Shown here piece by piece: positions 2,510-62,244 of a stretch of DNA of 64,000 nucleotides. This DNA comes from Oidiodendron maius Zn (taxonomy: Eukaryota; Ascomycota; Leotiomycetes; Myxotrichaceae). Position numbers and translations under genes: made by a program. Below the pieces are notes generated by a model that had not been told where the DNA came from, ran no database searches, and worked only from the letters and a program-made list of their open reading frames with translations. Position 1 is the stretch's first letter, and each line of letters begins with the position of its first letter. The stretch spans positions 1-64,000 of the forward strand of contig KN832905.1 in the NCBI GenBank assembly GCA_000827325.1, written 5' to 3'.

Positions 2510-5500
2510 ACCGACCGAGACCAGCAAGTTTTAGGGCTTCAACAGGTCGCCCCCATCAGCGGCGATACTATCGACAACACCACCATCGAGTATGTCCAGT
2601 GCTCTTGCAAAAAATGATCTAGATCTAACTGTGTAGCATCATCGCCATCCATGGCTTGGAGACTGGATCACCGCGCACGTGGGAATATAGGAAGGGCGAA
2701 GGCGAGGCAGTAAATTGGATTTCGGACGGCGACATGCTACCTGCCGCTTTGCCACAGGCGAGGATATACACATACGATTGGGATGCCAGCTGCTTCCAAG
2801 ATGCCCCCGTCCAGACCTTGCTCGGCCATGCCGACAACCTCCTGGCTTGCGTCGCAGGGGAGCGCTCCCGAGTTTCCCAAGACCGCCCGATCATATTTGT
2901 GGCATCCTGTTTCGGAGGGCTTATTCTGGCCGAGGTATGCTAGCTAATGAAGGAGTGAAGTTTGGCTAACCCGGCCAGGCGATCTGTCGAGCGGCCCAGG
3001 AAGGCAGCCGCTACCGCCATGTTCTGCTTTCTATCGTGGGTGCCGTCTTCCTCGCAACTCCGTTTGGCGGGAGCGAGGCGGCTGCGCAGGCCCAGTGGCT
3101 GGTAATCGTCAAGGGAATTATGGGTGATCAGTCGTCGGACCAGCTTGTCCGCGACCTGGAAGAAAGGCACGACTTCGTCCGTCAGCGAGTTCAGAAGTTT
3201 GCCGAGATAGCTAATGCCGACTCCGTGCGGCTGCCTGTCCATTGCTTCTTCGAGACGAGGAAGACGGAACTGCTAAGGAAATTCTTCCCGCACAGCCTCG
3301 CAACTTGGCTATCTTCTCCCCCTACGCACAAGATAGTAAGTTCTCTTCCTCTAGTGCGATAATAGTACCAGTTAACAGGAGACAGCTGACAGAAACAGCT
3401 TGTTTCCGACACTTCTGCCTGCTTACACGGGTTTCCCCGTCAGGGACTGAATGCAACCCATTCAGGGATGAACAAATTCGGTGGCCCAGAAGACCGCAAT
3501 TTTGAGCTTGTCAGAGACTCCATCTATAACTTAGCACAAGAGTCCTCAGGCGTCCTAAAACGTCGGAAGTCAGGTAAGCCAGCCTGCTAAGTCCATTTCG
3601 ACATTTCAATATAGAATTTCAAGAATGTACCGCTAATATTGGCCTAGATGCTAAGCAATACGAATTCATGGTCCCGTTTGGTCGAAATGAAAGGTTCGTA
3701 GGGCGCGAATCAATCTTGCACCAACTTCTCGAGAGGATCCCCCCGAGTGCGAATAAGGATGTATGCCAACGGACCGTCGTCGAGGGCCTCGGCGGCGTCG
3801 GCAAGACGCAGATCGCGCTCGAGGCCGCCTTTCGAGTCCATAACGAGCATCCCGACTGCCACATCTTCTGGGTCCCAGCGATCGATGTAACCAGTTTCGA
3901 GAATGCCTACCGAGATATCGGCAAAAAGCTTAATGTTCGAGGGATCGACGAAGATAAGGTGGACGTGAAGGCGCTTATCAAAGCTGCCCTAAACCGCGAT
4001 AGTACAGGCAGCTGGCTCTTGGTTGTTGATAATGCCGACGACGTGCAGCTACTGTTTGGTGATAGTGGCCTCTCCAACTACCTGCCCTTCAGTTCGAAAG
4101 GGTCAATCTTGTTCACGACTCGGAACAACGAGGTCACCGTGGGGTTAGATGTGCCTAGACCCAATACGATCACTGTGGCAGAAATGAGAAGGACCGAAGC
4201 GATAGAGATGCTGCAGGCAAACTTGAAGGAAAGCCAGATGCGAGATGCGGTTAGCACGGCGAGCCTACTCGACTTTCTAGCAGATTTACCACTTGCTATC
4301 AAGCAGGCGTCCGCGTATCTAGCGAAAACAGGGATATCAACTGCCCAGTATCTTTCCCATTGCCAGTCAAGCAATAAGGACTTAATCAGGCTCCTCAGCA
4401 AGGACTTCGAGGACCCTCGCCGTTACAAAGCAATCCGAAATCCCGTAGCTACTACATGGCTGATTTCGTTTGATCAAGTCTCCCGAGATAATCAACTTGC
4501 GATATACTATTTAAAATTTATGTGTTTTCTCGCCGAGAAAAACATTCCGCAATCGTTACTACCATCTAGGGATGAACTCGAAATGATCGAAGCGACCGGC
4601 GTCTTGAAAGCATATGCGTTTATTACCGAACGGGAAGAACAAGCTTCGTATGATATCCATCGACTCGTTCGGCTGGTAATGCAAAACTGGTTGGAAAGTG
4701 AGGCACAGTTGGAGGACTGCGTTACGTCTGTAATACGACAGCTTAGAGATATGTTTCCGGTTCCAGAGCACGAGAACCGAGATATGTGGGTGAAATATCT
4801 GCCTCACGCATTGGCTGCTTTGGAGTTTCGAGGCTCTTCTACCGACGAGATAACTCAGGTGTATGTCTTGCTCAGTGTAGGCAAGTGCTATACTCTTATG
4901 GGAAAATATGAGGCGGCCGAGCAGATGTACCGACAGGCATGGCAGCTTCAGGAGGAGGTGCTCGGGAAGGATCACCCAATCACGCTCATGAGCATGGGCA
5001 TCATCGCGGTATCGCTTCTCCTGCAGGGCAAGTACGCAGAGGCTGAATCCATGAACCGGCAGACACTGAAGCTGCAGGAGGAGGTGCTCAGGAAGGATCA
5101 CCCAATCACGCTCTTAAACATAAATAACCTTGCTGTGTCGCTTCTCCTGCAGGGCAAGTTTGCAGAGGCTGAGTCCATAACACGTCAGACACTGAAGCTA
5201 CATGAGACGGTACTCGGGAAGGATTACCCAAACACGCTTATCAGCAAGTATGACTTTGCGATATCGCTTCGCCGGCGGAGCAAGTCTGCAGAGGCCGAGT
5301 CCATGCACCGGCAGATACTGAAGCTGCAGAAGGGGGTGCTCGGGAAGGATCACCCAAGCACTCTTAGGAGCATGCGCCTCATCGCGATATCGCTTCCCCT
5401 GCAGGGTAAGTACGCAGAGGCCGAGTCCATGCACCGGCAGATACTGAAGCTGCAGGAGGAGCTGCTCGGGAAGGATCACCCAGACACACTCATGAGTATG

Positions 5501-5821
5501 AGCAACATCGCGGTATCGCTTCGCCGGCAGGGCAAGTTTGCAGAGGCTGAGTCCATGCTCCGGCAGACACTGAAGCTGCAGGAGGAGGTGCTCGGGAAGG
5601 ATCACCCAAATACGCTCATGAGTATGAGCAACATCGCGGTATCGCTTCGCCAGCAGGGCAAGTATGCAGAGGCCGAGTCTATACACCGGCAGACACTGAA
5701 GCTGCAGAAGGAGGTGCTTGGGAAGGATCACCCAGATACGCTCATGAGCATGCGCAACATCGCGGTATCGCTTCTCCTTCAGGGCAAGAACGCAGGGACC
5801 GAGGCCCTGACTCGGGAATAA
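2510..5821 (+). CDS. NLR/STAND-like protein: alpha/beta-hydrolase, NB-ARC, TPR repeats
   Basis: Probable cytosolic STAND ATPase of the kind used in fungal non-self recognition. Exons deduced: an upstream exon ending at 2589, then 2637-2934, 2979-3335, 3399-3573 and 3615-5821, all in phase. The first part is an alpha/beta-hydrolase-like domain: IIAIHGLE near 2638, VASCFGGLI near 2899 with Cys where lipases have the nucleophilic Ser, FLATPFGG near 3050. The NB-ARC region has Walker A GLGGVGKTQ near 3786 and Walker B LLVVDNADD near 4017. From about 4878 come 42-residue TPR units. The start codon was not found: the exon before 2589 has no in-frame ATG and the frame is closed by a TAG near 2474, so another 5' exon is likely. 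The frame stops at 5819-5821 although TPR coding continues in another frame, which suggests recent damage or a variable C-terminus. Confidence 0.8.
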
Positions 5822-46415: not shown

Positions 46416-49115
46416 TTATCGTAAAAGCTTCATAAGCCCTTCAATATCGCCGGGAGTATCAATAAGTTTTACGATATTTGAGATCTGACGAGACCTGTCC
46501 AGGCCGTATACTGGCACTGATAGAGACTCAAACTTCTCTTGGAGTATCTCCCAACTCAAGGAATGTGGTGGCTCCCCTGGTGCCTCTAACAACTCTTCTG
46601 TCAAATTTGTTCCATCACTAAAGGAGACAGTAACTTTTGTCTCCAGGCCCTTGTATTTTAAATCTCCATCCACCGTTATGCGCTTGGTAAGTTCATTTAA
46701 GTCATGGTCCAACAAATGATTGTACATGGTCCATCCGAGGCCACTTCCATGTATCCAAGCTACAGCAGCCTGAAAGTAAATGCTGAACTGGCCTTCTACA
46801 ACATTCGTCGGGTGAACTTTGTTCTCAATGTTTTGTCCTACAATGGGAACACAATGGGGAGCAAGAAGCAACTCTATCTTTTCGACAGAACGGTTTCCAG
46901 CTCGTTTTCGCAAGGAATCTGCGAGAGCAATAGCGGAATGGGTCATCCGACAAGCTGGGTATGGTTTGATTGCCGTTCCAGCAGACGTCCATACTCTGCT
47001 CAATCCATCAACTAAACTTTGTAGCTTCTCGGGAGTCATTTCGGCAGGAGTGTACGCCTGAAGGAGACCAAACTCTCCCTCGATTGCCTGTTCAGCCGCC
47101 TGGACGCCCGCTTCTGCCAGTGCTACACAGATCACCGCATCATGTGCCGCAAAACCTGGGTGTAGCCTTTTATTCCATGCTCCCGTTGCCAGAAACTGCA
47201 TTGAGCCTGCTGCTTTGGAGCCCGCTAAACCATACGCCATCTCTATTGTTTTAGCATCAAGGCGTTTGAGCTTGCATATTGCGGAAACAGCGCCGAATAT
47301 TCCAGCTGTGCCTGTAATATGAAAACCTTGCTTGTAACTCTCAGATCCAAGAGCCCTGCCAATCCGGCAAGCCACTTCATAGCCGGCAGCTATAGAGGTG
47401 AGAAGGTCAAGATTGGATGTAGTATCAGACACGCAGAGCGCTGCAGAGATGACTGACACTCCGGGATGGATAATACCAGGTGCATAGGTATCATCATAGT
47501 CCAGAGAATGGGCAAAGGCACCATTGAGAAGCGCCGCATACTGAGGAGCGAATGCTGTGCCATTCCCAATAACTGTGGACGAGTTATTTGTCACCATAGA
47601 ACAAAGGCTTTTGATTCCTTTCACAAAATGAGAGCTAGATTCGGCATTCTTTGCACCATATGCAGCAACCGCAATGTAATCGAGAAGAAAACTCTTAAGG
47701 CGTTGAACATGGGTATCAGGAAGATCCTTGAATTTGAGATTTGCCACAAATGTAGCCAAGGTCTTTGTTACCGGCACATAGTCGTGCTTCATTTCTCGCC
47801 CTTGTTCACGTTTTAATTGGTTTAAATTGCCCGCAGGGTCATTTTCGGGCAGCGACCCATCCCAGACATCCTTAGGAATGTATAAATGCCCATCCATAAT
47901 TCGCCTTGATGTCCTCACGATTGCCAGAACGCTGAAATTCTGGTTTGCGATAGGTACCCCGGCTATTTCGGAGGTTTTATCAAATGACCGTTTCACCATG
48001 ACTGGGATATGGCCAAGCGGATGTGATATATTGAATATTTCTCCCGGCATAACTCCACCGTCGAGCTGCCTGTTCACCACTGAGCCTGCGACCCATCCAC
48101 AAGCCGCAGTGCAGATTGATCCCGTTCCAGCCATACTGTCATGGCAAGAGTTGTTCAATAGCAGTCTGGAGACGATATGACCTTCGTTTTTGGCATCGCG
48201 CTGAGGAGAAATAAGGACCACCATTGGCAAGCCTGGAGATTGTTCATCTACTTTTTCCCACTCTGTGCACAAACCTACGAGCTGAGATGCCTTCCCTCTC
48301 AATTCTTTGCAGCGAGATATTAGGGCCGAATCTGAGTTGATTTGTTCCGCAGTTTCATCACCGGAGATTCCCATATCTTTGGCGGCCACAAAAACGCATA
48401 TATTGGCAACGTCGCAAATGGTAATATCAATGTCCTTGTTACCGACGCTCACCACATTAATGGCATTCCCCGACGGTATTACTCCTCGAGAGAGCGAAGC
48501 TCCTATTGTCTAGAATAGGGTTAATTAATTGTAATTGTCCAAAGTCTGTCCCAGATGTAGCAAACATACATTACGGAAATCAATAAGAATAGGTGCACCA
48601 GTGCCAGGCGTTCCATCAATGCTTGCTGTGCCGTTGGAGATAGACTTTCCTGTCCTGCTATCAACAGGAACATGAGATATGATGAGTTTCTTCGTTCCTG
48701 TGTTCCAGATCCGTATTTCTTGAGAAATCAAAGTTTTATCGATGCTAGCTCCGACACGGAATCTCTTGACCATGCTCTCATCAATTGCATAAGGACCAAC
48801 AGCAGAGCTAATGTTCCCACAATTTCCGTCATAGCCAATGTCATCCTGATCAATCCCAACTTGAGCAAATTCATAGTCGATGTCAACATCCTCGCGCTCG
48901 GACGGACTGACAATGGCAATCTTAGATGTGACAACACGTGTCCCACCCATGCCGTCGATCTGCATTGGATCTGGGCTGCCCATAATTCGCTTTAAAACGG
49001 CATCTCGCAAAGGTCCAGGTGGCGGAATATGCGCCTTGGAAAGAAAAACGGCCTTGCTAGTACCGCCGCGAATATAGGCAGCTGGTATGCCGTATTGACC
49101 TGCAGAAGAACCCAT
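46416..49115 (-). CDS. PrpF isomerase - MmgE/PrpD decarboxylase/dehydratase fusion
   Basis: Two exons (48570-49115, 46416-48509) give one 879-aa protein. Residues 1 to about 415 are a full PrpF/DUF453 domain: YIRGGTSKAVFL, DGMGGTRVVTSK and YDGNCGNISSAVGP, with the Lys (65) and Cys (99) at the places of the catalytic pair of PrpF; HPLGHIPV and DGHLYIPKDVWDG close it. From about 427 to 870 follows an MmgE/PrpD domain. SLDYDDTYAPGIIHPG (D519, T523, H530), FHITGTAG (H579), WNKRLHPGFAAHD (K629) and RMTHSAIA (H706) match the active-site positions I know from cis-aconitate decarboxylase IRG1. PrpF-type enzymes move the double bond of aconitate-like acids, and PrpD-type enzymes decarboxylate cis-aconitate or dehydrate 2-methylcitrate. 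The fusion could channel an aconitate isomer. The start is the ATG at 49115. The usual separate lengths are about 390 and 480-500 aa. Confidence 0.92.
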
Positions 49116-54092: not shown

Positions 54093-57000
54093 ATGTCGCA
54101 ACCACCGGCAAACGACCCAGCCGTCACCGCAGAACAGGTCAGGGCGCTCAGCGATGCCCTCGCGCAAATCGTTAGTGATGCACAAACCTATCTAGGGCTC
54201 GGCACTCCAGCAAGCGGCCCTACCGCCCCGAACGATCCGCCGACAACCACGCTGGTGTATGACTACCAAGCCTCTGTCGCTATACAGCTCGATGGGGACT
54301 GGGAGGTTTTCGACTCGTTTGTCTTGAATAGTGCGTATCTCGAGCTGAGTCTCAATGGCTACGCCGGTGTAACCTGTGCGTCTGCTGTCCCATTCTCAAC
54401 TGCCCGGTTTTTATATTGTCGATTTAATTTGAACCTAATGTTGGTGTCTTGCTTGAAGCCGAGATGGCCCTCGCCGCGTATGTCGAGGCAACATGCACTA
54501 TTGCTGGCATCGTCTTCGATGTTAGCGGGGAGCTCCCTGATCTCCAGTCCGACCGCGAGACCGATTTCACCTTTACTCTACGCGTCGCAAATGTGATCGA
54601 GGGCGTATCGGCACAGGATTTTCTTACGGCGTTTCCGGTCGCTCCCAGCTACGCAGCCATGACGGCGTCTCTAGATGCGGACGTGCGCCAGCAGCTGGAC
54701 ATAGGGGATAATAGCTGTGTCGGCCAAGTGACCATGGTGGTGCACAGGAATGCGGACAAGTCTTTCTACCTGCAAAAGATCTCCTTCGACCTCCAGGCCG
54801 GGTTTGACTGGAAACTCAACGATGACATTACTGTGCGTCGAGTGGCATTCACCGCAAACGCCACCCGCCCTACCAACACAGCCGACTGGCAGTTTGAGCT
54901 GGGAGTCCAAGGAACGGTGCTGCTGGGCGAGAAAATCGTGTCTGCGACCGCTCTGGTCAGTCTGGGGGATGCGTCTACGTTGACTCTGGGACTGGATGTG
55001 ACGGCAACTGAAACCATCACTGGCCCGCAGCTCATGGATTTTTTCGTTCCGGGGGCGTCTGAAAGGACATCTCAGCTGGTGGTGGACAGCCTCCCTCCGA
55101 GGATGATAGCATACAAGGGCGAGGTGGACTCTGTCAAAAACCCACTCACAGCCAAGGTGGTGTTTACAAAGGACGCACAACCGGAGGCCTATTGGCAGCT
55201 CTCATCCATTGATCTAAAGATCTTTCTTTCCGGGGTTTTATGGAACTCGAATGCCAAGGACGATAATAATATGTTGAAACTGACCTTGGGCGACCTCTTC
55301 TTCTCACTTCAGGCGCGACTTGTAACAACGCAGTCACTCGCGCTAGTGCCGGTACATGACCCCAAAGACATGAACCGCGACAGAGGCACGCTGGTAACCA
55401 CAAGGAGCTATCTGGTCACCACAACATACGACTATAAGGGAGAGATTGGCGGTGTCCTATCGCTGTTTAACTCAGCGTTTCGACTCGCTGTCCTGGTAAA
55501 ATATGACTCTACCACCGGGTTGACGACTTTTATGGCTTCCCTCCCAGATGGCATCTACGGGCCCTTGAACATGATGGCAGCAGATCCAGCGTTCAATCCC
55601 GCGCTCACAGCACCGGCCAACCTGCTAGACACCGCAGAAGCAGCTCCGGCACCAACCGAATCGACCGTATCACTAGACTCTGTGGTCGATCCTATTGACG
55701 GAACAGAACGTGGCCTGCGCATCATTTTCTCTGAGACAGAACTCAGCAGGGCTACTTTAAAGGCCGATTTTCGACTGGAGTGGGCGCTAACCACGTATAT
55801 CAAATTAACGGATCTGGGAATTCTATTTGATATCAAGAGTCCCCAAGACAAGGCAGCACGCACCACGTCAGGCTATGTCTATGGCAAGTTTCAAATCGGC
55901 AGTGGAGTACAGCTTCTGGCAATTGTGGCTGGGACTAAAACACCTACAGCCGCAGCGTTTTGGGCTGGTATCTCCGTAGCTGCAGCAATTCCCCTGCCAG
56001 ATGGCCCCTTGCAAATAGCTCCAAGTGCGGTGCTCTCCGACCCTGCATTTGTTGGACAAGCTGTACCTTCCGGTGGCTGGGGACTGCCCCCATTTCCAAT
56101 GGATGTGGCTCAAAATGTACTTTCGTCGGTCAACGCATATCTCCTGATAGAGCTCGTTAAGATTGGTGATACAAGCTCTACAAAGATGTCCTCGCTCAAA
56201 GCGAGAGCGTCTGGCGAAGGAACCTGGAACATCTATGCTGGTGTGCAAGCCACGGGCAATCTTACTCTGGATGTTGTTATAAAAACTGACAGCACTACAA
56301 GCCAGTTTGTGGGCCATGCAGAGCTCGGTGGTAGCTGTACTATAGGCACCGCTCCTAATCAGTACACTATCTCATTCACTGGCTATGTAGAGCGAGGCCC
56401 AAATGCTCCCTTCAGCTACAGTCTTAAATTCAGTATAGTTTCGGTGGCATCGGGTACTTTTCCACCTCCAACTACTATAGCTACTCTAGCACCGTTTGGT
56501 GAGAACGCGATTGATACTAGTAAGCTGACGGGAAAGCTTCCAGGTACAGTGTCTCATTCCTTACATTTACATGCTACTCTTCCCAACTAATATATTACAG
56601 ATGGCTATCCAATATCTCCAACTACACTTATAGGAACGGCAAGTAACAGTTTGGTCTGCACGGTGCAAGTACAACAGGCAGCATCTCCCGCAACTGGCTA
56701 TACTTTGGAGAGACTAACCTTTCGGCTGGAGCACCAAAGCCAGGAGTGGCAGATTGTCAAGAATTCATCTTTGGTGGTTCTCAAGTATGCTTCTCTAGAG
56801 CTCAACATAGACAGCCCTGGCTCAAATCCCACGTATGGACTTGTCGCATATGGTTTGGTGAGCATCAGTAACAGCGTGAATCTTGAAGCTCGAATTCAGC
56901 TTCTAACCTCCGTCGATGACCCTAATAGGGCCGGCTGGCTTAAAGTCGCCATGACAGTATCAGCTGGTGTCCAAGGGCAAGGGGACGATCTGCTGAAAAG

Positions 57001-60000
57001 GCTCGTCGGGAGCTCCAGCGATTTCAGCCTCCCTATATCATGGCCACTAGATCCTGTAACAGCAAATGCGTCGTTTGATCTCAATATTTACTTCCGAAAG
57101 GACTCGAATAGTGACTGGCAACTCACCGAGGTGGACTTCACCCTGTATGCAGCGACAGCCTCTCAGGAATGGAAAGTCGGGCCGGATTCGCATCAACTTC
57201 CTGTTGCATCCCTGTGGATAGCAGCTAATTTTACGAATATCGACGTGTCGACGGTCCGAGTGGTTTCATTCAATGGCATAGTTAACCTGTCTCAACGTGC
57301 CTTGGCCATCTCTGCGGTATTGTCTGGCTCGGATTTGAGTATCACTATTGCAGCTGGTAGTGATTTTCAAAGTCTAGTTGCAGTGTATATTGACAATGGC
57401 TTAAATAATTCTTCACTTGCCGCACCAATATTTGAAACGCAGACGACACTGGATACTTACAAGAGCGGCCTTTTCGCGGACGCAGTTTTGAAATTTCACA
57501 CCGCGAATGGGGTTTACTCGGTGGATAGTATCAATGCACATGTCAATGCTGTCGGCGACTGGATCATTGTTGACAACATTTTAAGCTTGACGAAACTCCA
57601 ACTCACATTATCGCTGACCTCAGTTGGGAATAATAAATGGGATTTTTATGCCAACCTCTACAGCGAGATCCGGTATAGGAAACAGAACGGCCAATACGAC
57701 ATAGTCAAGGTGAACCTGAAAGCCACCCTGGATCACCTAACAATGGATGTGGAGCTCAATTGCTCTATATTTGACATCTTCTATATTGCTACAGCTGGGA
57801 GATGGACCCTAGATGTAAATTTCTTCCCTAGGGTCAAGAGGCTCTTCTTTGACATGAACTGGAAGGACGGTCGGGCCCAGTTCCAGGGCCAGACTTTTGA
57901 TTGGAATTTGTCCGACAATTATCCAAATCTCCTTGGTATGCAACTGCCCACACTGGAAGTTAATATTTCTAGGGCATCATCGAGATTGGAAGCATCTGGA
58001 GTGGTCTCTGGTGTGGCGGCTATCTTGAATGTCCACATCCCGATTTCCTATGACTTAGCAAACGGACCGTTGAAGATTTTTAACTTAGACGTTGACAAGA
58101 TCTATGAGATGTGCAAAAAGCTATATGATCTTATCAAAGATATTGAGCGAATTTGCGAGATTATGCTGGATATTGTTGGACTTGGCGGAGCGTTGGAAGT
58201 CGGCCTTGCTGTAAGTTTCACCACTTGTCCATTCTTCTGCTAAATTTCCACGGTGCCTTTTTAACTGTGCTGATCATTATCTCTAGCTCGTGACAATTAC
58301 GAATGCCGTCAGCGCTGTATGGAAAGCTATCAAGAAGGTATTTGGTTACGGCGACGACGATGACGACGATGGCAGCCCCGACAGAGATGGTGACGGCGAC
58401 AGTGACAAAACTGACAGCGACAGCAGCGACAGTGGCAAAGACCATCCTGGTACTTACGCATGGGTCATTGGAGGACCAGGACTCTCTAACGGAATCGCTA
58501 GTGAAGAAACCAACTTCACCATCTATCCCAAAGACAAGCTTGGACTCCCTCTACCTATCAACAGCGCAGATCTGACGGTGACAATCATCCAGAACGGCGT
58601 TGTAATCAGCACTATCAGAACCTTCACCGGCATTATGAGGGGCGGTTATATTGTGTCATATGTTCGACCTGCTAACTTGGGCGACTATACCATCACTATA
58701 TCCTACCCAGTCGCCCTGCCAGGAGCTCCAGGTGGATATACATCAACCCACACCGTAACCGTCACCACAGCCGCCGCAGTCTTAAGCGGCCAAAACTCCA
58801 TCCTGGATGTATCACAGAACCTTCTTGCCGGCGTGATAAACTATGCCACCATTTGGCCGCGGGATAACTTCAATAGGCCCCGTCGTGGATATGATGAGAG
58901 CGAATCCTTTAATGTCGCGTTCGAGCCGCCCTTGCCTGCCCCCGAGACATACACCTTCTACAATGACAGCGTCAAAGTAGGCTTTGTCCTCCCAGAACAG
59001 GTAGGGGCCACATATACAATGACAGCCACGCTGCGGAACGGGGATACGCCTCTATCTGGGTCACCGGCGACTTTTACTTCCATCCTCGTTGTCGACCCCA
59101 ATCGCTGCATTGCCGGTGGACTTGGCCTCTCTTCAGGCTTGGCTGGCGAAGACACTACCTTTAGTGTTTCCGTCAACGACCAGATGGGGAGAGCATGGGT
59201 TGGAAACATGAGCTGCACCGCGACCTATGTAGTACAGGGAGAGGGTACCGTCGTCACGTTGACGTCGACGCAGGCCGGTAATGTGTTCCGCTTCAACTAT
59301 ACCCGCCCAGTGATCCCGGAGACTTTTTATACCCTCCGGATATTTGTCAACGGCAGGCTGTTGCCAGATTATCCTATCATGATACAGACAGCTGTACAGG
59401 CAGTTCATCTTTCCGTTACCAACTCCTTTCTAAGCCTAAACGCTGGTCCATACTACCAGACTTCGAACATTGTGGCGACCATCACGGCATTTGATGATCT
59501 GGCCCAACCCGGTCTTTGGAGGGATACAGCAATTGCTGTTAACTTTGCCCTCACCAGCAAGAATGTTGTCAGCGGAGCCACAACGAACTGGCCACTTGTT
59601 GATAGGGGCGATGGGACATGTGTAGCCACTTTATCGTTACCAGATCTTGTCAAGTATGAGATCGCTGCCACGTCAAGTGATGGGAGGATCATTGTCAACC
59701 CATCAATGAGCCCACTGGTAATCGAAATTACTCTTCCCCCTTATGTGGCAGATTCACGATGCTTCGGTCCGGGTCTATCGCTTCCTGATTCTCAGCCGCC
59801 GGCTGGCACGACTACGTACTTCGACATCGTACCGCTGGACCAGTACGGGAAGACGATGAGACTCTCAACCACCGACCCGACTTCATTCCTCGTCTTCATG
59901 AAGGAAGAAGCCAGACCCGTTATCACACCATACAACGGCAGCCGACGTGTAACATATACTATTCCGGCCTCGAGTCCCCTAGTCCCTGGGGATATCATTC

Positions 60001-62244
60001 GCGTCCAGCTCAATGGAAGCGACGTCTCTGGGAGCCCGTACGCCCTTACCCGGACAACCCCGACTGTGCCAGCCAACTGCCGCGTGTCAGAATGGATTTC
60101 TCACGAGGTAGAGGAGATCTCGAGTTTTGTAATTACGGCCGCCGATGCAAATGGCAATGCTCGTCGCGTTGGCGGCGACCAAGTCCAGGTCACTTCTGCG
60201 GACGCGGACCCTAACTGGCCGTTCGTGGTGCTGAATATCCGCGATCGTGGGGACGGCACCTATCTAGTGCGGTACATTCCAAGCGTGAGTGTGCTGAGGA
60301 TGAATGTCCTGGTCAACAATGTCGCGATCAACGCGTCGCCCTTCTCTTTCCCAGTGCCACCAGTCCGCTTTACAGCTGCAGGGACAGGACTCGACCTCTC
60401 GTCGCTGGGGATTGAGTCGCAGTTTCAGCTGTTTGCCACAGACGGGCACAACCCTATAGACGATTCGGCGTTTTTGCATACGGCAATCATCTATCCAAAG
60501 CCCACGGCGGTATTGACGGCGGTACCCATGACTATCGTTCCTGTGACACCGCCGCCCCTTGGGGTGAGTAACGCCACCTATACTATCCCGACTACCATGC
60601 CAACGGGTGACTATCTCATCCGTCCCCTCATCAACTACCGCGACATTGTCTCCGGAAGCCCCTTTACCGTAGTGGTTGATGATACGCCGGGAGCCACTGC
60701 AGTGGGCATAGATAATGTCTATTTCGCGACATCAAGTGCAGGAGCATTCTCTGGATCCTTTACTGTTCTTACAACTCCTCCGATGCCAGTACAAGTTTCA
60801 GATTTGGCTGTGACAAATGCCGGACAAAGCACTCTGCCAGCGGACCTCCTGCCTACGTACTTGGTTGCTGTGGACCAAACACAAGTTGGCGTATTCACCA
60901 TTCAGACCGGTTTCCGCATTGAAGGTAGCTGGGCAGTATCAATTGTCTTCAAAGGAACGCCAGTGTTGCCCCCTCCTAATCTCGGGTCTCGGTGGGTGTT
61001 TTACTCGTGCGATGCCGGAAAAGCCCTCGCAAGCTATGTGCCCGACACCCCAACGCCGTCCTTCTCTATCGCCCAGCAAACTGGCTTCCAGATCCAAGTC
61101 GGCGTGGCCACGAGGAGCCTGAAGTTCCTCAAGGACCCCAACGTTGTTGCGAATGATCGGTATTCCAGTGCCACCTGGAAGCTGCCCGTACTTGATATGG
61201 GCAGTGAGGTCATCTTTCACTTCCGCACGCGCTGGAATGTCCTCTCCCAGGCATCACAACTACAAATGATCCTTCCGACTGTCACTCAGTTCTCGCGGAC
61301 TGAGGTTGCCGTCTTACGCTATTACCAGGGTACCGTCTGGTGGGCCATTCGTAACTACCAGAAGGACACTTATACCAATGTGACAGCGTCTGCTATCTCT
61401 GCAAACCAAATGTGGCACTTCTTATATTTCCATCTGACACCGACCTCCCTTCGCATTTACGAAGACGGGCATCTTGTCATCGCAAAGGATAGGAGGCTGC
61501 TCAACAATATTCCATCCTATACATTAGGCTTCCAGGTCTTTGACGACGCTGCAGCTTTTGATGCTGATGTGGCAGAGTTTGTAACGAGCCCCGCTGCCTT
61601 GCACGAAGACTTCTCTGCCTTGTCTAGGCCGCTGGAGATCTTGTTCAATAAGGCCTCGCAGCAAATTAACCAGTCATGGTATTCCATCCAGCAGAATCCT
61701 CCCATTCCAATAGCATATACCGACAATGGATCGCTACAGATTGCTACAACAAATCAAGCAGTGTATGTATTACTCCTAGCAAACTACAGCAAAGCTAACC
61801 CACACTCTCCACTCAAATAGTACAAACTCCAATAGCATAACTGGGTTCACAGCGCCCCTCGGGCCATACTGCGCTGTGCAGTACCGCTTCCGTATCAACC
61901 GCTCCGATGGCTACGAAAGCAAAGTCACACTCGTAGCGGCCATTACGATGCGTGTCTTGAGTGGGCAGCCGCAGTGGCAGCTTCCCACTCCCTATAATTG
62001 GACTACCCTCTCCAATACTACGGCCATCCGCGTCGGCAGCGGCAACTACGTAACTGTCTCTATTATCGTGTCGCCAAACTCCTTGATCTTGTTCGAGAAT
62101 GGGGTCATGAATTTCGAGTATACAGCTGGTGGTGGGGGTACTACGAATAGTGCAATGTTTGACGTCCAGCATTATGATGCTAGGTCGGGTGTTGATGTTG
62201 AGTTGTCATTTTTGAGAGTGCTGAGTGGCACAGCCTGGCCGTGA
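54093..62244 (+). CDS. Giant 2622-aa protein: beta-rich N-half, Asp-rich linker, filamin-type repeats, LamG-like ends
   Basis: Five exons (54093-54366, 54459-56543, 56601-58210, 58287-61762, 61821-62244) splice in phase. The first 1290 residues are beta-rich and seem to repeat a loose pattern of aromatic-x-L-x-x-I/V-x-F-x-L followed by W-x-L (for example YLQKISFDL, LERLTFRLEHQ, WQLTEVDFTLY, YSVDSINAHV); I know no family for it. A hydrophobic helical stretch near 1290-1345 (IYEMCKKLYDLIKDIERI) leads to an Asp-rich linker at 58354-58440 with DxDGD-type repeats that could bind calcium. Then come about seven filamin-type Ig repeats, shown by GGPGLSNGI, GGLGLSSGLAGEDTTFSV, FGPGLSLP, DRGDGTYLVRY and SGSPFTVVV. 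Two LamG/concanavalin-like domains end the chain. There is no signal peptide and no actin-binding domain. Function unknown. Confidence 0.85.

Follow-up and report, generated by a model that had tools for sequence, protein, structure and literature searches.

The locus at positions 46416 to 49115 of a 64,000-nucleotide stretch of Oidiodendron maius Zn DNA (contig KN832905.1; the whole stretch is referred to as the window) raises the question of whether a PrpF-type isomerase and an MmgE/PrpD-type enzyme are joined in a single fungal protein and, if so, what such a protein would do. A preliminary description of this DNA had proposed one fused protein of 879 residues, and our gene model and Pfam matches bear out its coordinates, strand, length and both domains. 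The gene is read on the minus strand from an ATG at 49115 to a TAA at 46416 and has one intron. Its features are as follows:

48570..49115, minus strand: exon 1, ATG and residues 1-182, PrpF half
48510..48569, minus strand: intron of 60 bp, GTATGT...CTAG (GT-AG), within the PrpF domain
46416..48509, minus strand: exon 2, residues 183-879 and stop; the end of PrpF, the linker and the entire MmgE/PrpD half in a single open frame
47874..49088 including the intron, minus strand: PrpF domain, residues 10-394, with Lys65 and Cys99 (PF04303; PDB match 3g7k)
47763..47873, minus strand: inter-enzyme linker, residues 395-431, the gap between the Pfam matches
47043..47762, minus strand: MmgE/PrpD N-terminal domain, residues 432-671, with His516, Asp519, His530, Tyr574, His579 and Lys629 (PF03972)
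46461..46961, minus strand: MmgE/PrpD C-terminal (lid) domain, residues 699-865 (PF19305)

Five splice acceptors were tested: removal of 48510-48569 leaves zero internal stops, while each of the other four leaves 38. At the resulting splice point (residues 182/183) the alignment with 3g7k is ungapped, and the closest gap lies eight residues downstream. The PF04303 match (residues 10-394, E 1.3e-83) covers profile positions 4-371 of 371 and the PrpF domain is, therefore, full length; with the matches to PF03972 (residues 432-671, E 5.4e-63) and PF19305 (residues 699-865, E 1.1e-23), the proposal that both domains are full length holds (PrpF, 10-394; MmgE/PrpD, 432-865). The exon 2 open reading frame alone has 679 residues; when the letters of the window were shuffled 20 times, the longest stop-free runs were 140-216 codons. 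The gene has a GC content of 47.1% versus 47.3% for the window, and genes with short introns are present in the window. As a correction to the preliminary description, the intron is within PrpF, and the junction, at 47763-47873, is in an unbroken exon. Because the intron sits inside the PrpF domain, the domain junction (residues 395-431) is independent of splicing. The fusion of PrpF and MmgE/PrpD in a single protein is real.

As judged from its sequence, the PrpF half appears nearer to methylitaconate isomerase than to PrpF. Its best PDB match is 3-methylitaconate isomerase (3g7k, 264 bits), with LigU at 174 and Shewanella PrpF at 170 bits, and it scores below the cut-off of the NCBIfam equivalogs for both 4-oxalomesaconate tautomerase (282.5 of 440 bits) and PrpF (197.4 of 440.55 bits). 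In a 24-row tree, built without Adi1, it falls into a 7-row clade (100/100) with the PrpFs of Streptantibioticus cattleyicolor, Paraburkholderia caribensis, Cupriavidus, Variovorax (two) and Tistrella. This clade is nested with 3g7k and a further row in a 9-row clade (98/97) that leaves LigU and Shewanella PrpF (2pvz) outside. AU tests rejected direct pairing of the PrpF half with 2pvz (p 0.006), LigU (p 0.0006) and 3g7k (p 0.003); pairing with S. cattleyicolor PrpF, for which the best solved match is likewise 3g7k (315 bits), was not rejected (p 0.246). The columns of Lys65 and Cys99 are invariant in 24/24 rows, including 3g7k. The latter protein, the 3-methylitaconate delta-isomerase Mii of Eubacterium barkeri, resembles the fungal half in the PrpF fold and in these Lys and Cys columns; it differs from the fusion in being a single-domain enzyme and not a direct sister of the PrpF half. 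Mii is described as converting methylitaconate to dimethylmaleate in nicotinate fermentation, with itaconate as a further substrate (PMC4720413).

For the MmgE half, a sequence search of the PDB returned B. subtilis MmgE (‘IRG1’, 7bra), mammalian cis-aconitate decarboxylase (CAD) and IDS epimerase; among the matches listed, which extend to E 10, there is no PrpD. Trees were built without proven methylsuccinate isomerases; matches shorter than 800 bases were left out of the extraction, L048 (32 residues extracted) and L053 (344 residues) were dropped before the trees and L059_10181 additionally before the tree for the CAD/PrpD tests. In a 30-row tree, the MmgE of S. cattleyicolor is the sister of the fungal half (100/99; 43% identity by BLAST), and the two are identical at all 13 positions compared. 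Both belong to a clade of seven rows (100/98) whose second branch is made up of L009, L069 and L067. L009 stands with genes for a CoA transferase, a CoA-ester lyase, an acyl-CoA dehydrogenase and a MaoC protein, and L067 and L069 are beside similar ones; these gene sets are of the itaconate/methylsuccinate kind. The preliminary description had drawn an analogy to itaconate synthesis (Adi1 with CadA/IRG1), which is not borne out. Tested as nearest partners of this half, human CAD (p 2.7e-6), CadA (p 0.004, for a provisional CadA sequence) and E. coli PrpD (p 0.013; 16.6% identity) were all rejected by AU tests. The provisional CadA and the fusion share a 19-row clade, in which CadA is placed beside the MmgEs of Bradyrhizobium and Paracoccus (89/78) and from which human CAD is absent; E. 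coli PrpD and both CADs have long branches. The score against the NCBIfam PrpD model is 44.5 bits versus a cut-off of 950.

The known reactions of the MmgE/PrpD family are 2-methylcitrate dehydration, cis-aconitate decarboxylation, IDS epimerization and (S)/(R)-methylsuccinate isomerization, and the substrates of all four are described as having a 1,4-dicarboxylate backbone in common (PMC12290011). IDS epimerase and methylsuccinate isomerase are reported to use a His and a Tyr (PMC12290011); Tyr145 is the second base in IDS epimerase, and B. subtilis MmgE keeps the corresponding Tyr146 (PMC7347537, PMC12290011). In the aligned columns, the fungal MmgE half has both residues of such a two-base site, His530 and Tyr574, together with the carboxylate ligands His516, Asp519, His579, Lys629 and Lys697. 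Since Tyr574 occupies the column of Tyr145, it is the predicted counterpart of the second base. This residue was missing from the catalytic residues listed in the preliminary description. The listed residues themselves (K65, C99, D519, T523, H530, H579, K629 and H706) are at the positions given; however, the residue that aligns with His277 of human CAD is Cys702 and not H706, and Tyr318 of human CAD aligns to Ile743. According to PMC11814083, A. terreus CAD is also without His277 and, thus, that residue alone excludes nothing. The Tyr574 column has Met in human CAD, Leu in the provisional CadA and Phe in E. coli PrpD. Because 16 of the 30 aligned MmgE rows have Tyr in this column, the residue is not specific. 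The fusion resembles methylsuccinate isomerase and IDS epimerase in the His and Tyr site and the carboxylate-binding residues and, in the case of methylsuccinate isomerase, also in that relatives from methylsuccinate-type gene sets share its 7-row clade; by contrast, both are stand-alone bacterial enzymes. In the methylsuccinate pathway, MmgE is described as giving bacteria use of the (S)-enantiomer (PMC9875883).

The preliminary description had also proposed two linked steps, and this idea stands: relatives of the two halves are neighbors in bacterial operons. On pSCAT of S. cattleyicolor (L003), the gene order is LeuC-like, LeuD/DmdB-like, MmgE, PrpF and a lyase of the ICL/PEP-mutase family. 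The LeuD/DmdB-like protein exceeds its NCBIfam cut-off, and the lyase belongs to the dimethylmalate/methylisocitrate-lyase family. The likeness to the fusion lies in adjacent genes closely related to both halves; unlike in the fusion, these are two separate genes with MmgE first, and the function of the operon is predicted only. Five organisms in a plasmid collection have a PrpF with 49% or higher identity to that of Cupriavidus (among the best 40 of 325 records; the next is at 42%). In four of them (L003, L010, L063 and L065), a lyase and large and small hydratase subunits accompany PrpF. MmgE is within 5 kb of PrpF in three (L003, L063 and L064) and not in the other two, and S. cattleyicolor alone has one operon with close relatives of the two halves; in Cupriavidus (L063) and P. 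caribensis (L064), MmgE is distant from the fungal half (25% and 28% identity, respectively). Nine PrpF loci were also taken from the leading entries of a phylum sample built around an Agromyces genome, a small and non-random set, and all nine lack MmgE within 5 kb. The best solved match of the Cupriavidus lyase is 2,3-dimethylmalate lyase (209 bits, with 178 for 2-methylisocitrate lyase), and the S. cattleyicolor lyase has petal death protein as its best solved match and dimethylmalate lyase as the next. For both operon lyases, NCBIfam gives methylisocitrate lyase as the best name, at a score below the cut-off, and the bacterial operon may have a methylisocitrate-type substrate. Taken with the chemistry of Mii, the gene content lets the operon be read as a putative isomerase-hydratase-lyase set that acts on a substituted itaconate and has MmgE as a partner.

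Other pairings of the two families differ. In Bradyrhizobium and in Paracoccus, PrpF and MmgE are beside genes for a tripartite tricarboxylate transporter, and the PrpF-adjacent MmgEs (L004 8962-10374 and L005 8974-10380) carry Lys where the fusion has His530 and Arg where it has Tyr574. Hence, a PrpF-MmgE pair is not always accompanied by a two-base epimerase site, and these two MmgEs likely catalyze a different chemistry. On two Paracoccus plasmids (L006 5993-11918 and L068 6227-12117), three consecutive MmgE genes are followed by a LigU-type PrpF.

No bacterial fusion was found in the plasmid records or genomes searched. Among 915 matching plasmid records, 16 (H1-H16) match 80% or more of the query in one place; in the six that were inspected (H1, H3, H10, H12, H13 and H16), the two halves occupy separate genes or separate stretches, and nine further rows name two or more genes beneath the match. 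H2 is a second S. cattleyicolor record with scores equal to H1. In the genome search, 68/296 genomes matched and, with up to three candidates scored per genome, no listed match spans both halves. Two candidates were rejected: in Halomonas sp. PA16-9, which matches query residues 7-548 in one piece, inspection by eye gave a PrpF, a stop and a separate MmgE-like open reading frame, with an aconitase-type frame upstream, and in L019 the 838-residue open frame around the PrpF match has an extension that overlaps an open reading frame in another frame. An MmgE close to that of S. cattleyicolor (E 1e-90 or better) is present in one of the 297 genomes of the family of G130 and is identical to it. A scan of genome contigs gave two PrpF loci, and a scan of viral contigs found no relative. 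In the open-access literature, we found no published description of a PrpF-MmgE/PrpD fusion; a single paper there mentions PrpF as well as MmgE, and its sole occurrence of PrpF is in the title of a reference.

Based on these data, we tentatively suggest, from sequence comparison, that the fusion acts as a bifunctional isomerase on branched dicarboxylates whose backbone is C4. 3-Methylitaconate, which corresponds to methylsuccinate plus a methylene group, has a single stereocenter. In the proposed model, the C-terminal MmgE half would invert the stereocenter adjacent to a carboxylate by two-base proton transfer between His530 and Tyr574, while the N-terminal PrpF half would catalyze an allylic proton shift via Lys65/Cys99, as in 3-methylitaconate isomerase, converting an alkyl-itaconate to a dialkylmaleate. 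In other words, the MmgE half would racemize the alkyl-itaconate and the PrpF half would consume one enantiomer, so that both enantiomers of an alkyl-itaconate-like acid could be fed into a single route. In bacteria, this route would continue with a LeuCD-type hydratase and then a lyase of the dimethylmalate-lyase family. We infer the substrate, the direction, the racemase role and any hand-over between the sites. Alkyl-itaconate-like acids, which the preliminary description had named as products, may hold as substrates and not as products.

In favor of a bifunctional branched-dicarboxylate isomerase, we count that the bacterial sister of the MmgE half is beside a PrpF from the clade of the fungal PrpF half, that 3g7k is the top solved match of both the fungal and the S. 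cattleyicolor PrpF, that Tyr574 is present here and missing from the CADs and E. coli PrpD, that MmgE clade mates are beside methylsuccinate-type genes, that four of the five clade organisms have a lyase and hydratase subunits beside PrpF and that, among solved proteins, the Cupriavidus lyase is nearest to 2,3-dimethylmalate lyase. Against it, we count the rejection of direct pairing with 3g7k, the non-specificity of Tyr574 and its replacement, with that of His530, in the Bradyrhizobium and Paracoccus MmgEs, the below-cut-off naming of the operon lyases as methylisocitrate lyase and the restriction of close relatives of both halves to S. cattleyicolor. The window itself also counts against it: there is no lyase match in the window, LeuCD-type hydratase queries matched only a mitochondrial-type aconitase there and an isomerase, hydratase and lyase set of the dimethylmalate type is thus not found in the window.

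The wider gene content of the window is as follows. A candidate run of organic-acid genes at 23005-46000 comprises a piece of a mitochondrial carrier, an Amidohydro_2 protein, two MFS transporters, an aconitase, an ATP-grasp protein (D-Ala-D-Ala ligase-like), a Zn2Cys6 regulator, a third MFS transporter, an AAT-type acyltransferase and a GDSL-like protein. The aconitase (31.0-33.5 kb) scores as the mitochondrial type and, by eye, keeps the Fe-S cysteines. The run at 23-46 kb is a possible organic-acid gene cluster. Elsewhere, an NB-ARC protein with tetratricopeptide repeats, of an NLR-like type, is encoded at 3668-5821 on the plus strand, and three long open reading frames of 713, 530 and 1176 residues are at 54449-61820 on the same strand; the 1176-residue frame has four filamin repeats, and the other two match no Pfam family. 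In its Zn2Cys6 regulators, MFS transporters, mitochondrial carrier piece and short introns, the window resembles the DNA of filamentous fungi; no tRNA was found in it.

If the genes at 23-46 kb were a tricarboxylate cluster, the substrate of the fusion would be a tricarboxylate. The MmgE half would then act on an acid of the citrate or alkylcitrate type, by dehydration or epimerization, and the aconitate so formed would be isomerized by the PrpF half and either exported or built upon. The carrier, aconitase, MFS transporters, regulator and ATP-grasp protein, all 1-26 kb from the fusion, are consistent with this, as are the tricarboxylate transporter genes that adjoin PrpF and MmgE in Bradyrhizobium and Paracoccus. 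We nevertheless regard it as unlikely, given an aconitase that scores as the ordinary mitochondrial type and a PrpF half that appears nearer to methylitaconate isomerase than to PrpF.

The same carrier, aconitase and MFS genes have counterparts in known itaconate clusters, and the preliminary description had read the fusion as an aconitate isomerase joined to a cis-aconitate decarboxylase that makes itaconate or an alkyl-itaconate. U. maydis Adi1 is described as a PrpF-family aconitate isomerase; however, its product, trans-aconitate, is decarboxylated by Tad1, which is of a different family (PMC4720413). CAD has the MmgE/PrpD fold and the provisional CadA is in the 19-row clade of the fusion, but both CADs are without Tyr574 and the AU tests rejected pairing with human CAD and the provisional CadA. 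Ustilago Adi1, an isomerase of the PrpF family, and Aspergillus terreus CadA, an enzyme with the MmgE/PrpD fold, resemble the fusion in being fungal and in these families, but unlike its halves they are separate proteins of two different pathways. Altogether, production of itaconate by the fusion appears distinctly improbable.

PrpF reportedly acts with AcnD in the 2-methylcitrate cycle, and the NCBIfam PrpD model matches the MmgE half weakly; a variant of this cycle, with a PrpD-like dehydratase and a PrpF helper, could therefore be considered. It is very improbable with a score so far below the 950-bit cut-off and with the pairings with E. coli PrpD (at 16.6% identity) and Shewanella PrpF both rejected. 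Finally, a pseudogene or two overlapping transcripts instead of a working fused gene is scarcely credible: an unspliced message would stop within the intron after ~200 residues, but the junction is inside one unbroken exon, the 879 codons have no in-frame stop and the catalytic residues compared are retained.

A more far-reaching proposal is that the fusion represents the first itaconate-type racemase joined to its isomerase and marks a CoA-free breakdown of alkyl-itaconates in fungi and some bacteria, which would pass through dialkylmaleate and dialkylmalate; this is possible but doubtful. The function of the fusion is probably a two-step rearrangement of small branched acids and not the production of itaconic acid and, as a caution, a PrpF and PrpD pair should not be equated with itaconate synthesis. 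The fusion suggests that the two enzymes act jointly, ties the little-characterized MmgE family to the methylitaconate-isomerase family and directs attention to a bacterial operon of predicted function. If the branched-dicarboxylate isomerase model is true, it would add a new reaction to the MmgE family and show a possible coenzyme A-free use of branched dicarboxylic acids by fungi.
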